From Chloroflexota bacterium (GTDB lineage: Bacteria; Chloroflexota; Limnocylindria; Limnocylindrales; CSP1-4), in contig PMXQ01000035.1 of NCBI GenBank assembly GCA_003171065.1, positions 266-40,776 of the forward strand: 40,511 nucleotides of DNA. The letters run 5' to 3'. Position numbers and translations under genes: made by a program. Under the pieces are notes generated by a model. The model saw nothing but the letters and a program-made list of their open reading frames with translations, was not told the origin of the DNA and searched no databases. This document shows positions 17,050 through 23,881 of the stretch, piece after piece (the stretch's first letter is position 1; each line of letters begins with the position of its first letter).

Positions 17050-17081
17050 GGTCGGAGGTTCAAATCCTCTCGCCCCGACCA
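17050..17081 (+). pseudogene. 3' relic of a tRNA-Pro gene at the element's left end
   Basis: Reads as the last 32 bases of a tRNA: GGTC (variable loop), T-stem GGAGG (17054-17058), T-loop TTCAAAT, CCTCT, acceptor strand CGCCCCG, A, CCA (17079-17081). GGTCGGAGGTTC together with CCTCT is typical of tRNA-Pro. The 5' half, which should start CGGGGCG, is not present: that position is inside the preceding coding sequence. This is therefore a fragment, not a working tRNA gene, and it contains the 17-bp attachment core. Confidence 0.75.
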
Positions 17082-18526
17082 TTCCCAACAATTCCGCTGA
17101 ACGTGGCCGGCACGGCGTAGGCGAAGCCATGAGCCGTGGCTTGGGCGGTCAGATGGAACCGCATCGCCTGGAATCCCGAGGCTTCGATCCGGCTGAACAA
17201 CGAGCGCGCCAGTTCAGCTCGACCAGGCCCACAATCGGCAAGACGCCAGGCTTCACCGAGGCCCTGTAGGTAGCTGACCGCACGTTCGGCGGGAATGCCT
17301 TCGGTCTGACGGACAACACGGGCAGCGTTCTCTTCGCGGTCCAGGCGTTCCATGGTGGCTCGTAGAGCGTCGTAGTCGCGATCGCGGACCACACGTGCGG
17401 CGGCGTCGGCTCGTTCGCGTTCGATCCGCCGCAGGGCTGATTCGTCGGGACCAGTGCGTGCGGGCACGACCTGGCCCACAACGCCCGCGACCAGGTGGGC
17501 GTCGAGGCTGACGCGATCCAGGAGCACGCCGACTGCATCCTCGATCAGCTCGCGCCGGTATCCCTTGCCATCGCGTCGGCCTCTTCGACTTGCCGGCAGG
17601 TCCGGCTGCGCTGCTCGAAACTGGGGACAGGCCCGATCGTGGCGATAGAAGCCGGAATCACCGGATATGCGCTTTGCACAATGGGCGCAGTGGAGCATCG
17701 CGAGGGCGTATGGTCGAGACGGGCTGGCCTTGCGACCGGTGCTGGTCGCCCGGGCAGCCCGGACAGATGCCACCTTGTCAGCGAGTTCGACTGGCACGAT
17801 CGGCGGCCAGTGGGCGTCTGTGCCGTCGCGCAGACGACCGACATAGAGGGGTGAGAGCAACATCCCGCGGATCGTGTCGATGGGCAGGCCGAGAGCTTCG
17901 GCGATCTCATGGTCGAGCGCCCCGGCCGCCGAGCGGCGAAAGGCAGCCAGAACCGTATCTGCCTTGTCGGGGTCCGGTTCGATGAGCTTGTCCTCGTTGC
18001 GCCGGAAGCCGAATGGCGGATGGCCGCCGGGGTCGCGCTGCTTGGCCAGCTTGGACGCGTAACCCTCATGTATTCGTCGGGCGAGTCTTCGGCTGTATCT
18101 CTCGGCGTCTTTGGCTTCGTCGACGAGTTGGTCCCAGTGACGATCGCAGGACGAGAGAATCTCCTCATCGGCGAACCAGACTGCGACGCCGGCCGGATGA
18201 AGGGTGTCTTCGAGCAACTCGAGGGTGCGACGGAGGTTGCGCTGCCAGCGGGAGACGTAGCCGACGATGAGAACGTCGAAGGCGCCGTTGCGCGCGGCGT
18301 CGAGCATGGCCGCCATCTCGGAACTGCGATACACCGTGCGGCCGGAATGAGCCGCCCGCCAGACAAGCCCTGTGTCTTGCAGGCCAAGCCGGCGGATTGC
18401 GGCGTCTTGTAGCTCGATCTGCGCTTCGGGGCCGTATCGGTCGAACTGACCAGGCGTGCTCTCACGTATCCAGCGAGCGGCACGAAGACCGACCAGGGCA
18501 TCGGGTGAGGTGGGCAGTCTGGTCAC
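17060..18526 (-). CDS. Large serine recombinase (integrase) whose 3' end lies in the attachment site
   Basis: Site-specific recombinase of 488 residues. The N-terminal resolvase domain has RESTPGQ with the nucleophile Ser23 and GYVSRWQRNLRRTLELLED; then a recombinase domain (PFGFRRNEDKLIEPDPDKA), a zinc ribbon (LHCAHCAKRISG, later RAC) and a coiled-coil near 370-420 (ALRRIERERADAAARVV). GTG 18526 overlaps the stop of the upstream gene (GTGA). The last seven codons (GRGERI, stop) lie on the 17-bp core and the first chromosomal bases; in an excised circle the frame would instead continue 24 codons to a stop at 23791. All catalytic features look intact. Confidence 0.88.
   Translation of the reverse strand: MTRLPTSPDALVGLRAARWIRESTPGQFDRYGPEAQIELQDAAIRRLGLQDTGLVWRAAHSGRTVYRSSEMAAMLDAARNGAFDVLIVGYVSRWQRNLRRTLELLEDTLHPAGVAVWFADEEILSSCDRHWDQLVDEAKDAERYSRRLARRIHEGYASKLAKQRDPGGHPPFGFRRNEDKLIEPDPDKADTVLAAFRRSAAGALDHEIAEALGLPIDTIRGMLLSPLYVGRLRDGTDAHWPPIVPVELADKVASVRAARATSTGRKASPSRPYALAMLHCAHCAKRISGDSGFYRHDRACPQFRAAQPDLPASRRGRRDGKGYRRELIEDAVGVLLDRVSLDAHLVAGVVGQVVPARTGPDESALRRIERERADAAARVVRDRDYDALRATMERLDREENAARVVRQTEGIPAERAVSYLQGLGEAWRLADCGPGRAELARSLFSRIEASGFQAMRFHLTAQATAHGFAYAVPATFSGIVGNGRGERI
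17065..17081 (+). repeat. Left attachment core (17-bp direct repeat)
   Basis: tcctctcgccccgacca, identical to 23865-23881 in the same orientation, distance 6,800 bases. It forms the end of the tRNA-Pro relic and also encodes part of the C-terminus of the recombinase on the opposite strand. Flanking bases differ (left a/t, right c/g), so the identity is exactly 17 bp. Confidence 0.85.
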
Positions 18527-18801
18527 GCGCTCCTTCTCCTTTCGGGTTCCATCGTCCCGGTTGACTCCTCAACGTCGTTGTCGGCGTCGGTAGGCGGCGA
18601 CTCCGCCTCATCGTCGGGCGAACCAACGACGCGAAGACGTGATCGCATACTTTGCTCGTTAGCGTATGCGTCTCGCACCAGCTGGGCCAGGGCGGCGACG
18701 ATCGGATCAGGCACCGCGCCATTGTCCTCCCACGCTGTGCCATCTTGGATGGCAACACCGGGCGCCGCCAATAGTTCGATGCGGATCGGCAGCTCGTTCA
18801 C
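18523..18801 (-). CDS. Small hypothetical protein between rep and int
   Basis: Ninety-two residues, GTG start overlapping the rep stop and TGA overlapping the recombinase GTG, so it is locked in a three-gene coupled operon. The N-terminal half is folded-looking (IRIELLAAPGVAIQDGTAWE, then DPIVAALAQLVRDAYANEQ), the C-terminal half acidic and disordered. No family recognised. By position it could be a replication accessory protein or a recombination directionality factor; nothing in the sequence proves either. Confidence 0.65.
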   Translation of the reverse strand: MNELPIRIELLAAPGVAIQDGTAWEDNGAVPDPIVAALAQLVRDAYANEQSMRSRLRVVGSPDDEAESPPTDADNDVEESTGTMEPERRRSA

Positions 18802-20141
18802 GGCGCCGACCCATCTTGGTGCCCCACAAGGTCGGCGAGGCTCGGAGCGCCGACGCCGGCGAAGGCAAAGGCCCGGATCACGAGGGTGGACTCTTCGGCC
18901 ATAGCGGGAACGCCATTGATACCGCGGGCGATCATCGCGAGATTGGCCCGATACCGGACCCGAGCGGTCCGAAGGTAGCCGAAGGTGACCGAGTAGCGGC
19001 GAGCCTTCGTCAGGAAATGGCCCCGAAAGCCGAGCATGTGCGCCCAGGCTCGAAGTCGCAGATGTTCGTATCTCCGATCCGCACCGAGCGACCAGGCCGT
19101 GGCCATCATCGCCCGGGCGTGAGGGCTAACCGGCAGCAGACCGATCTCGTATGGCGAACGCAGAGGACGGTCGGCACCGCCCGCACTCTCGGCCGCTTTG
19201 GTGGCGTACTTCGCGAGATAGCCCGCGACACTGGTATCGGAGCCTTCGCCTTCGGAGCCCGCCCGGATAGGGCGAACGTCGAGCTGGACGCCCCAGCGAA
19301 CCAGTAACGGCGTCCCGTCGGGCCGTTGGGTCCGCAGCGATGTTTGCACCGCCGCAGCTGCGACGATCTCCGAGAGGAGCTCGCTCGTCGCCCATGTCGG
19401 CGGCGCGGTCGGCCTTGGACCGGGCCCGTCGAGGCGCAGGATCACGTGGAGATGGACGAGTCCCCGAGTCTGGAACTCGGCGACCTTGACGAAGGACAGA
19501 CGCACGAGCCTGCCTATCTCGCTCCGAGGCACTCCGGCTCTTGCGGCGAGGAGGCGGGTCATAGCGATGGTGGTCCGGCGCCACAGAGCCCCGACCTCGG
19601 CATTCCAGAGCACCGCTCCGGTGTAGTCGTAGCAGGCCGGGCACAAGGGCTGACCGACGGCCTGATCGTTTGCCTCATGGCGCACGGGACACGAGATCGG
19701 ACGCCCGTGGACGCACGATTCCTCGCCCGATCTGGCTCGACAGGGCAGCAACGATGTTCCACGAACGACGCGGCGATGGACGGCACCGAAGGAAGGGGCG
19801 GTGAAGGTGGCGAAGACGCGAGGATGGGTCGACACGTCGATCGGGACGCCCCGTTCCGCATCGCCGGCGACTCCGGCTCTAACCAGAGCGTAGGCGTCAT
19901 GCCGGTATACGTCCGAGCACGATTGGCAGCGTGACGCCCGCCGGTTGCCACAGGCGAGGAGGACGACGCCGAATGGCGCATCGGTACTGGCGAACCGTTC
20001 GACGATCTCGCCGGTATCGCGATTGAGGGTCAGCCGTTCGCCGGCCAGACGGATCGGCGACGAACAGCGGTCCGCGAGAGAGCCAGGCGGGCCGACTGGC
20101 GGCAGGGTCGTGTAGGTTGCGGAGGGCAGGGCGGGACGCAT
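18798..20141 (-). CDS. RepSA-like HUH replication initiator
   Basis: Probable rolling-circle initiator that would replicate the excised circle. Counting from ATG 20141 (447 residues): a zinc-binding cluster CGNRRASRCQSCSDVYRHDA near 64-82, FATFTAPSFGAVH near 110, a second Cys-rich part ending CPACYDYTGAVLWNA, the HUH metal motif GLVHLHVILRLDG with His230 and His232, and the catalytic tyrosine motif GYLAKYATK (Tyr308/Tyr312). This order matches the RepSA family of pSAM2-type actinobacterial elements. The frame extends to a TTG at 20165 without an RBS; ATG 20141 has AAGGA about 11 bases upstream. First gene of the coupled rep-orf-int operon. Confidence 0.82.
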   Translation of the reverse strand: MRPALPSATYTTLPPVGPPGSLADRCSSPIRLAGERLTLNRDTGEIVERFASTDAPFGVVLLACGNRRASRCQSCSDVYRHDAYALVRAGVAGDAERGVPIDVSTHPRVFATFTAPSFGAVHRRVVRGTSLLPCRARSGEESCVHGRPISCPVRHEANDQAVGQPLCPACYDYTGAVLWNAEVGALWRRTTIAMTRLLAARAGVPRSEIGRLVRLSFVKVAEFQTRGLVHLHVILRLDGPGPRPTAPPTWATSELLSEIVAAAAVQTSLRTQRPDGTPLLVRWGVQLDVRPIRAGSEGEGSDTSVAGYLAKYATKAAESAGGADRPLRSPYEIGLLPVSPHARAMMATAWSLGADRRYEHLRLRAWAHMLGFRGHFLTKARRYSVTFGYLRTARVRYRANLAMIARGINGVPAMAEESTLVIRAFAFAGVGAPSLADLVGHQDGSAP

Positions 20142-23591: not shown

Positions 23592-23721
23592 CTGTTCCTC
23601 GCTACGGAGCCTAGGCGGATTGCCGTCCGCGTTTGCGGTCTATCAAGACTGCTCTATGTCCGAGAAGGTTCAATTATCGTGTCTTGAAACCGCTCAGACC
23701 ACTCAGGATTGCTCCGCGACG

Positions 23722-23769
23722 GCCGACACCCGTGACCATGGATCGCGGATAAGCCCGTAAAGTGTCGGC
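23722..23769. repeat. Inverted repeat near the right end of the element
   Basis: GCCGACAC (23722-23729) and GTGTCGGC (23762-23769), perfect 8-bp arms around a 32-base spacer with an inner CCATGG. It lies between the sigma gene and the right attachment core. It could be a recombinase or Rep binding site, an origin, or a terminator; only the symmetry is certain. The 273 bases between the sigma start and the core hold no gene in the integrated state. Confidence 0.4.
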
Positions 23770-23864
23770 TCTAGTCCTCTGGACGATGGCCTATCCAACT
23801 TCGCGCAGTTCGGTGGACGCGCCAGTCTCGATCGAGTAGATCAGTTGGAAAGTCTCGCCTCTAC

Positions 23865-23881
23865 TCCTCTCGCCCCGACCA
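23865..23881 (+). repeat. Right attachment core (17-bp direct repeat)
   Basis: Identical to 17065-17081. Bases left of it do not match the tRNA relic, so the tRNA-derived flank is only at the left junction. On the minus strand the bases left of it continue the recombinase reading frame for 24 codons (to TAG at 23791-23793), as expected if an attP crossing the end of int was split on integration. Confidence 0.82.

Follow-up and report, generated by a model that had tools for sequence, protein, structure and literature searches.

Can the state of a mobile element decide which integrase it makes? This question is raised by a 40,511-nt stretch of a Chloroflexota genome (contig PMXQ01000035.1, assembly GCA_003171065.1), here termed the window, whose positions are used as coordinates. 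The window contains a small integrative element that encodes a large serine integrase (Int) and a RepSA-type replication initiator (Rep) and is bounded by two copies of a 17-bp attachment (att) core, one of them inside the int 3' end (Table 1). A sequence-only reading had held that the int frame crosses this core and has two possible ends, yielding 488 or 511 residues. Both ends can indeed be read from the two arms. On the left side, the frame gives GRGER-I-stop, the TGA being the reverse of the tRNA T-loop TTCAAAT. In the right arm it gives GRGER-SRGETFQLIYSIETGASTELREVG-stop, i.e. 487 + 24 = 511 residues, and the first tail codon borrows one base from the core. The circle junction was deduced from the two ends of the element.

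The best overall explanation is probably a state-dependent Int that results from attP, the attachment site of the free element, spanning the int 3' end. For the family, sequence comparisons make such state dependence well supported. In the free form, int would read through the core into a tail, 24 codons long here, that is encoded at the opposite end of the element. Integration at the 3' end of a tRNA-Pro gene, or at a tRNA-like site as in the window, would set an antisense T-loop behind the core, and the TGA of this T-loop would terminate the protein one residue on. The free element would make Int-long when integration is needed, the integrated copy Int-short.

The claim that attP lies across the int 3' end and that each state has its own C-terminus is supported by related integrases, which were found in both states. 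For this comparison, 47 distinct homologues reading into the core were used, and the state of the flank was judged from the DNA behind the core, not from the protein ending. In the window's frame, all 12 integrases with an intact tRNA-Pro behind the core end GRGERI-stop, and 18 of the 20 followed by a non-tRNA arm have at least 17 further residues (L289 among them runs off its contig). Two have a T-arm only, the window with GRGERI-stop and L021, and three belong to a class ending within 30 nt, among them L281, which reads GRGERI-stop. L031 has GRGERI-stop with unknown bases in the tRNA. In a second frame, three integrases read through the tRNA antisense, five continue on non-tRNA DNA and one is cut. 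The nearest pairs in opposite states are L037/L051 (88% identical) and the window/G054 (86%).

In many relatives, the int 3' end adjoins a tRNA-Pro gene whose 3' end is GGTCGGAGGTTCAAATCCTCTCGCCCCGACCA. There, int is antisense to tRNA-Pro and the T-loop TTCAAAT supplies the stop. In the window, only ~33 nt of the left flank match the tRNA-Pro 3' end, directly behind the stop of a conserved gene, and ARAGORN detected no tRNA in the window or in six scanned loci covering the other core places of the source genome. Among 24 loci compared, source genome included, G052 alone has a clear unoccupied att-like site directly behind the same conserved gene. In view of this site and the short tRNA-Pro match, the window element appears to occupy a tRNA-like secondary site or remnant. 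The DNA of its right flank is common to no same-locus relative outside the source genome in the stretch compared across these 24 loci.

The core itself recurs: The 17-mer has eight copies in the source genome (3.02 Mb, 88% complete) and none of its reversed control, and 81 of the 107 genomes in the taxonomic family contain a 15-mer of it. This is not chance. One copy in the source genome, C123:37739, was considered as an empty attB and rejected because its left arm belongs to a tail family (D), so that it looks like an element end. At window positions 33066-33110 (+ strand), a core-like sequence with one mismatch precedes a stretch (EPAGPTGRIVV) that resembles tail family D; it is probably left over from the end of another element. 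The source genome also contains a second element with int and RepSA (L014:2386-4206, on C54), whose integrase is 56% identical, enters the core in another frame and stays open for 124 residues past it.

Viral contigs offer a view of elements with a single core. A scan of IMG/VR yielded 21 loci, and 13 contigs (L278-L290) were searched whole; each has exactly one core. Complete tails are present in nine, and the tail of L289 is cut; L281 ends at GATTTGA, and L278 reads GRGERT-stop. L279, with the same int type, reads GRGERI-stop beside a tRNA identified by ARAGORN as tRNA-Pro(CGG). Seven of the viral tails have QIRGC in common. Since terminase genes lie on the tail side in the single-core contigs L282 (large subunit, PHROGs) and L288 (Terminase_7, Pfam), attP is located inside int and the tail is phage DNA in these two; in the other viral contigs examined, the tail side gave no match to a diagnostic family.

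Is the tail selected as protein? The arm might instead be conserved only as an attP half-site bound by Int, with the open frame incidental and the tail without a role. Binding of Int close to the core is required of any att arm, and chance-open frames are common: Among 74 arm clusters, frame 0 is open for at least 16 codons in 41 and frame 1 in 36, compared with 59 for the int frame, an excess that speaks against arm DNA alone. The 24-codon frame of the window is unremarkable by itself and weak evidence; therefore, relatives have to decide. Tail families chosen by peptide patterns (two family A rows were dropped in one test) were rejected as biased, and the test was therefore repeated on arms selected by core match with up to 3 mismatches (198 unique, 174 of them non-tRNA) and clustered by DNA similarity. 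Alignment columns were shuffled within codons in the eight clusters of at least four arms; p-values are uncorrected. Cluster 2 was tested without three rows (two of L167 and one of L168), and cluster 3 without the window relic. Part of the arm pool had been fetched by tail queries, by which clusters 0 and 1 were partly enriched.

In the int frame, constraint was found in clusters 0 (n = 27, p = 0.001), 2 (n = 12, p = 0.005), 4 (n = 8, p = 0.034) and 5 (n = 6, p = 0.009), and in frame 1 in clusters 3 (n = 12) and 6 (n = 5), both with p = 0.001. Every other frame of every cluster had p not below 0.19. When the first seven codons were removed, int-frame p-values were 0.002, 0.05, 0.012 and 0.003 for clusters 0, 2, 4 and 5 and 0.49 and 0.23 for clusters 7 and 1, and clusters 3 and 6 kept p = 0.001 each in frame 1. 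This persistence in clusters 0, 3, 4, 5 and 6, with cluster 2 at the border, is not what an Int-binding arm alone would predict. Altogether, one-frame constraint appeared in six of the eight clusters by permutation and in four (0, 3, 5, 6) by a BLOSUM version with slightly different rows. Groups found via int gave similar results: phage tails with p = 0.008 (four rows) and 0.013 (seven rows, without L287), and a tRNA-Arg clade, in which L291 is the tRNA-state member, with p = 0.0006 for six tails (that of L263, which would be the seventh, was not found). In family A, similarity ends at the stop codon and a 3-nt gap is in frame, which again argues against conservation as DNA only. Protein-level conservation of several tail families is thus supported by these comparisons, and a role of the arm solely as DNA is improbable, even though the window's own cluster has no significant codon signal.

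The earlier description of the window's extension as protein-like therefore holds in part: Several tail families are constrained, but the cluster of the window is not significantly so, and a close trio is only suggestive. Tails in this cluster mostly end in EVA or EVG and are divergent, without codon signal; stops number 2 in the int frame versus 22 in frame 1 and 9 in frame 0. In the trio formed by the window, L147 and L149, tail length and stop are kept. Pairwise, the tails are 73, 71 and 87% identical and the sequences behind them 52, 57 and 57%, and the nonsynonymous and synonymous proportions (pN/pS) are 0.22/0.46, 0.28/0.40 and 0.13/0.18. These values are suggestive of constraint on the window-type tail. 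L147 is located on the contig of the 86% identical G054 integrase, ~7 kb apart, where the opposite end of that element would be expected. We infer that the window's own tail is functional and that its circle forms via this core.

Several observations weigh against a C-terminus that strictly follows the state. L021 has a variant T-loop without stop, resulting in an 80-residue end. Two ends in non-tRNA arms are short, L026 with 11 residues and L278 with GRGERT-stop. Hence, the expectation of longer tails outside tRNA genes holds for 18 of 20 integrases, but the single-core viral L278 comes close to an unintegrated homologue ending at GRGERI, the case the sequence-only reading had named as contradicting it. 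L278, L030, L079 (int frame 2 on frame-1-coded arms) and L087 (reverse) lack the tail coded by their arm; such mismatches are expected if recombination shuffles arms in arrays, and they argue against a strict need for the tail. In several cases, the non-tRNA DNA beside the core may mark a tandem junction or a pseudo-site instead of a circle, and no circular contig was found. Int-frame constraint was not significant in cluster 7 (n = 4, p = 0.28) and in the window's cluster 1 (n = 17, p = 0.54). The BLOSUM version fails clusters 1, 2, 4 and 7 (p = 0.15, 0.07, 0.09 and 0.07); its two values for the window cluster are 0.15 and 0.18. The tail of L282 is predicted to be disordered, with a predicted local distance difference test (pLDDT) score of ~23-31.

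Such findings would fit a tolerated by-product: attP overlaps the int 3' end, a workable C-terminus is retained in the free form by selection and the integrated form is equally good, so that nothing is switched. The conserved integrase body stops short of the core in the alignment, ends are short or mismatched in frame in L278, L026, L030, L079 and L087, the tail is predicted to be disordered, and, according to a passage in PMC5737554, phiC31 integrase can do without its final 21 residues. However, purifying selection on tails well past the core in several families suggests more than filler, and we consider a mere by-product unlikely.

If Int is state-dependent, what might the tail do? As a flexible module, it could improve integration by the free-state enzyme or place it under different control, and loss of the tail might lock or re-tune recombination. 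Such an activity or specificity module comes close to an even chance. A stability or turnover signal is a less likely function, and a tail without any state-specific role somewhat less likely again. The ends of the tails bear on the second possibility. Among cluster representatives, 35 of 49 tails in the int frame end in Ala or Gly, compared with 3 of 16 in frame 0 (Fisher p = 3e-4) and 13 of 27 in frame 1 (p = 0.05); 84 of 278 long open reading frames (ORFs) have such ends. This hints at a C-terminal signal, which might shorten or set the lifetime of Int in the free element and be removed by integration. The predicted flexibility of the tail would suit such a signal, and repressors analogously lose a C-terminus of 20-35 residues upon integration, as a passage in PMC8092301 describes. 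On the other hand, the frame-1 representatives also often end in Ala or Gly, although some of them are real frame-1 tails, clusters are not independent, and the internal conservation of family A exceeds what a degron needs. A strict ssrA-like tag was rejected: The host ssrA tag ends in ALAA, which the tails do not copy. A stability switch is considered rather doubtful.

A direction switch via the tail is conceivable by analogy with the phiC31 integrase fusions described below, but the tail is predicted to be disordered, the phiC31 C-terminal end is dispensable, and a stability signal or a tolerated by-product would fit as well. More broadly, a built-in switch is put forward tentatively, with Int-long in free elements and phages and, after integration, Int-short with another direction, specificity or lifetime. 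Since a single core at one tRNA is common to many elements and tandem arrays shuffle arms between integrases, the C-terminus would then be a swappable cassette.

There are precedents in other integration systems. The integrase of Myxococcus phage Mx8 is not of the serine type, and its attB sites are located in tRNA genes. The integrase gene of the window encodes a resolvase-type domain, so it does not belong to the Mx8 family. As proposed for the window element, attP of Mx8 is situated within int and attachment alters the C-terminus; in Mx8, the specificity of the enzyme changes as well (IntP; Tojo 1996, Magrini 1999; described in a passage of PMC6070905). The effect was tested there, whereas the case made here is one of sequence. 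In passages of Islander (2014), Mx8 and SSV integrases are described as extending across attP and are treated as tyrosine-type, the term integrase being restricted to that family, and serine integrases are stated not to be known to target tRNA genes. A passage in PMC3218068 lists serine recombinases in tRNA-Leu (8, from Mycobacterium) and cites phiRSM1 in tRNA-Ser, calling such cases rare.

Integration-dependent immunity of mycobacteriophages is similar in that attP lies in a gene, a stop is encountered at attL, often at a tRNA 3' end, and the product becomes 20-35 residues shorter (passages in PMC8092301). There, it is the repressor gene that contains attP and the integrase belongs to the tyrosine family, whereas here attP is in int; moreover, some viral forms described in these passages carry ssrA-like -AA ends, unlike most tails here. 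Actinomycete integrative and conjugative elements (AICEs) and other serine-recombinase elements in tRNA genes share RepSA-type replication with int and, as seen in relatives of the window element, tRNA targeting. In contrast to AICEs, no transfer gene was found in the window element and its relatives are Chloroflexi; a state-dependent integrase end is not mentioned in the relevant passages of PMC3218068. The phiC31 integrase fused to its recombination directionality factor (RDF) shows that a C-terminal moiety can control the direction of a serine integrase (a passage in PMC5737554), but this fusion is engineered and carries a 244-residue RDF, while the tail is a natural short peptide without demonstrated RDF similarity. 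Searches of an open-licence library, which lacks most subscription papers, turned up no account of a serine integrase whose tail is state-dependent and under selection. With Mx8 and integration-dependent immunity as precedents, the serine-integrase version with selected tails looks new.

Int matches occur in 61 of the 107 genomes of the taxonomic family, source genome included. Named relatives among 52 loci are mostly Chloroflexi metagenome-assembled genomes (MAGs), with a few MAGs of Actinomycetes, Thermoleophilia, Solirubrobacterales and Frankiaceae. Among the matches listed, the core 15-mer appears seven times on G037:C64 and four times on G007:C107, which look like tandem arrays. In L095 (G037:C64), L080 (G007:C107) and L078/L079 (G037:C53), cores follow every few kb, some adjoining tRNA-Pro; these loci were read as tandem accretion arrays, where the arm behind an integrase is that of the neighbouring element. 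The contigs of L018, L029 and L106 break off ~20 bases or less from the core, which would be expected if more than one continuation confronted the assembler at this point. A sister clade (L291, L293, L240, L242, L266, L271, L292, L109) has another core. L291 adjoins tRNA-Arg(CCG) and ends ARPTGFEPATFGSGGRRSIH-stop, and other members end ARPTGVG...IPIEGRDEWLAAA...; judged by these ends, the clade shows the same state-dependent pattern.

The features of the element are compiled in Table 1. W19, R21, E22 and S23 of Int are invariant across 12 aligned members, S23 presumably being the serine of the catalytic domain, and so are C280, C283 and C300. Behind the catalytic domain, large serine recombinases (~450-600 aa) have a recombinase domain, a Cys-rich zinc ribbon and a coiled coil. 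A predicted model of one relative has long paired helices at 363-404. Int has no match to Pfam Recombinase, and NCBIfam matches are far below the cut-off. A plasmid collection yielded no match, nine records of annotated phages matched with at most 28.7% identity and 59% coverage, and solved structures gave a single weak match, 3g13. No FtsK-like transfer protein was found among six ORF stretches of the element scanned against Pfam. Behind the tail stop, stacked arms seem to pile up, perhaps via repeated integration into old sites. To the right of the element (24042-24596, + strand), a small ORF precedes a ParE-toxin-like ORF (Pfam E 3.1e-4, just under the cut-off), likely a toxin-antitoxin pair.

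Table 1. Features of the integrative element and its borders in the window.
Feature	Position	Strand	Evidence or remark
tRNA-Pro T-arm-like remnant beside core, source of TGA on int strand	17049..17064	+	letters identical to tRNA-Pro 3' end of relatives; tRNA not intact
Large serine integrase gene, integrated-state form, 488 aa, ends GRGERI-stop	17060..18526	-	ORF; N-terminal resolvase-type catalytic domain (Pfam Resolvase, E 3.1e-10); homologues; invariant residues
Left copy of 17-bp att core, inside int 3' end	17065..17081	+	sequence TCCTCTCGCCCCGACCA
92-aa ORF between rep and int	18523..18801	-	no Pfam or NCBIfam match
RepSA-type replication initiator	18798..20165	-	Pfam RepSA, E 1.7e-146
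ORF stretch inside element	20865..21680	+	no Pfam match
Kelch-repeat protein	21755..23074	-	Pfam Kelch families
Sigma-70-type factor	23064..23591	-	Pfam Sigma70_r2 and r4
Relic: half core and C-type arm behind tail stop	23754..23780	+	same stack in L147 and L149
24-codon tail plus stop, continuing int frame from right-end core	23791..23864	-	stop 23791-23793; related arms
Right copy of att core	23865..23881	+	sequence TCCTCTCGCCCCGACCA
Right flank with small inverted repeat GTAGG...CCTAC	23882..23903	+	resembles flank of several other core sites

What keeps serine integrases one-way is a key issue in phage biology and in their use as DNA-writing tools. The natural enzyme pairs described here differ by a short tail tied to the free or the integrated state. 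If it is true that the tail alters direction, pairing or lifetime, control would be achieved without a separate protein. Furthermore, integrases annotated from integrated copies may miss residues of the integrating form, which is relevant to genome mining.

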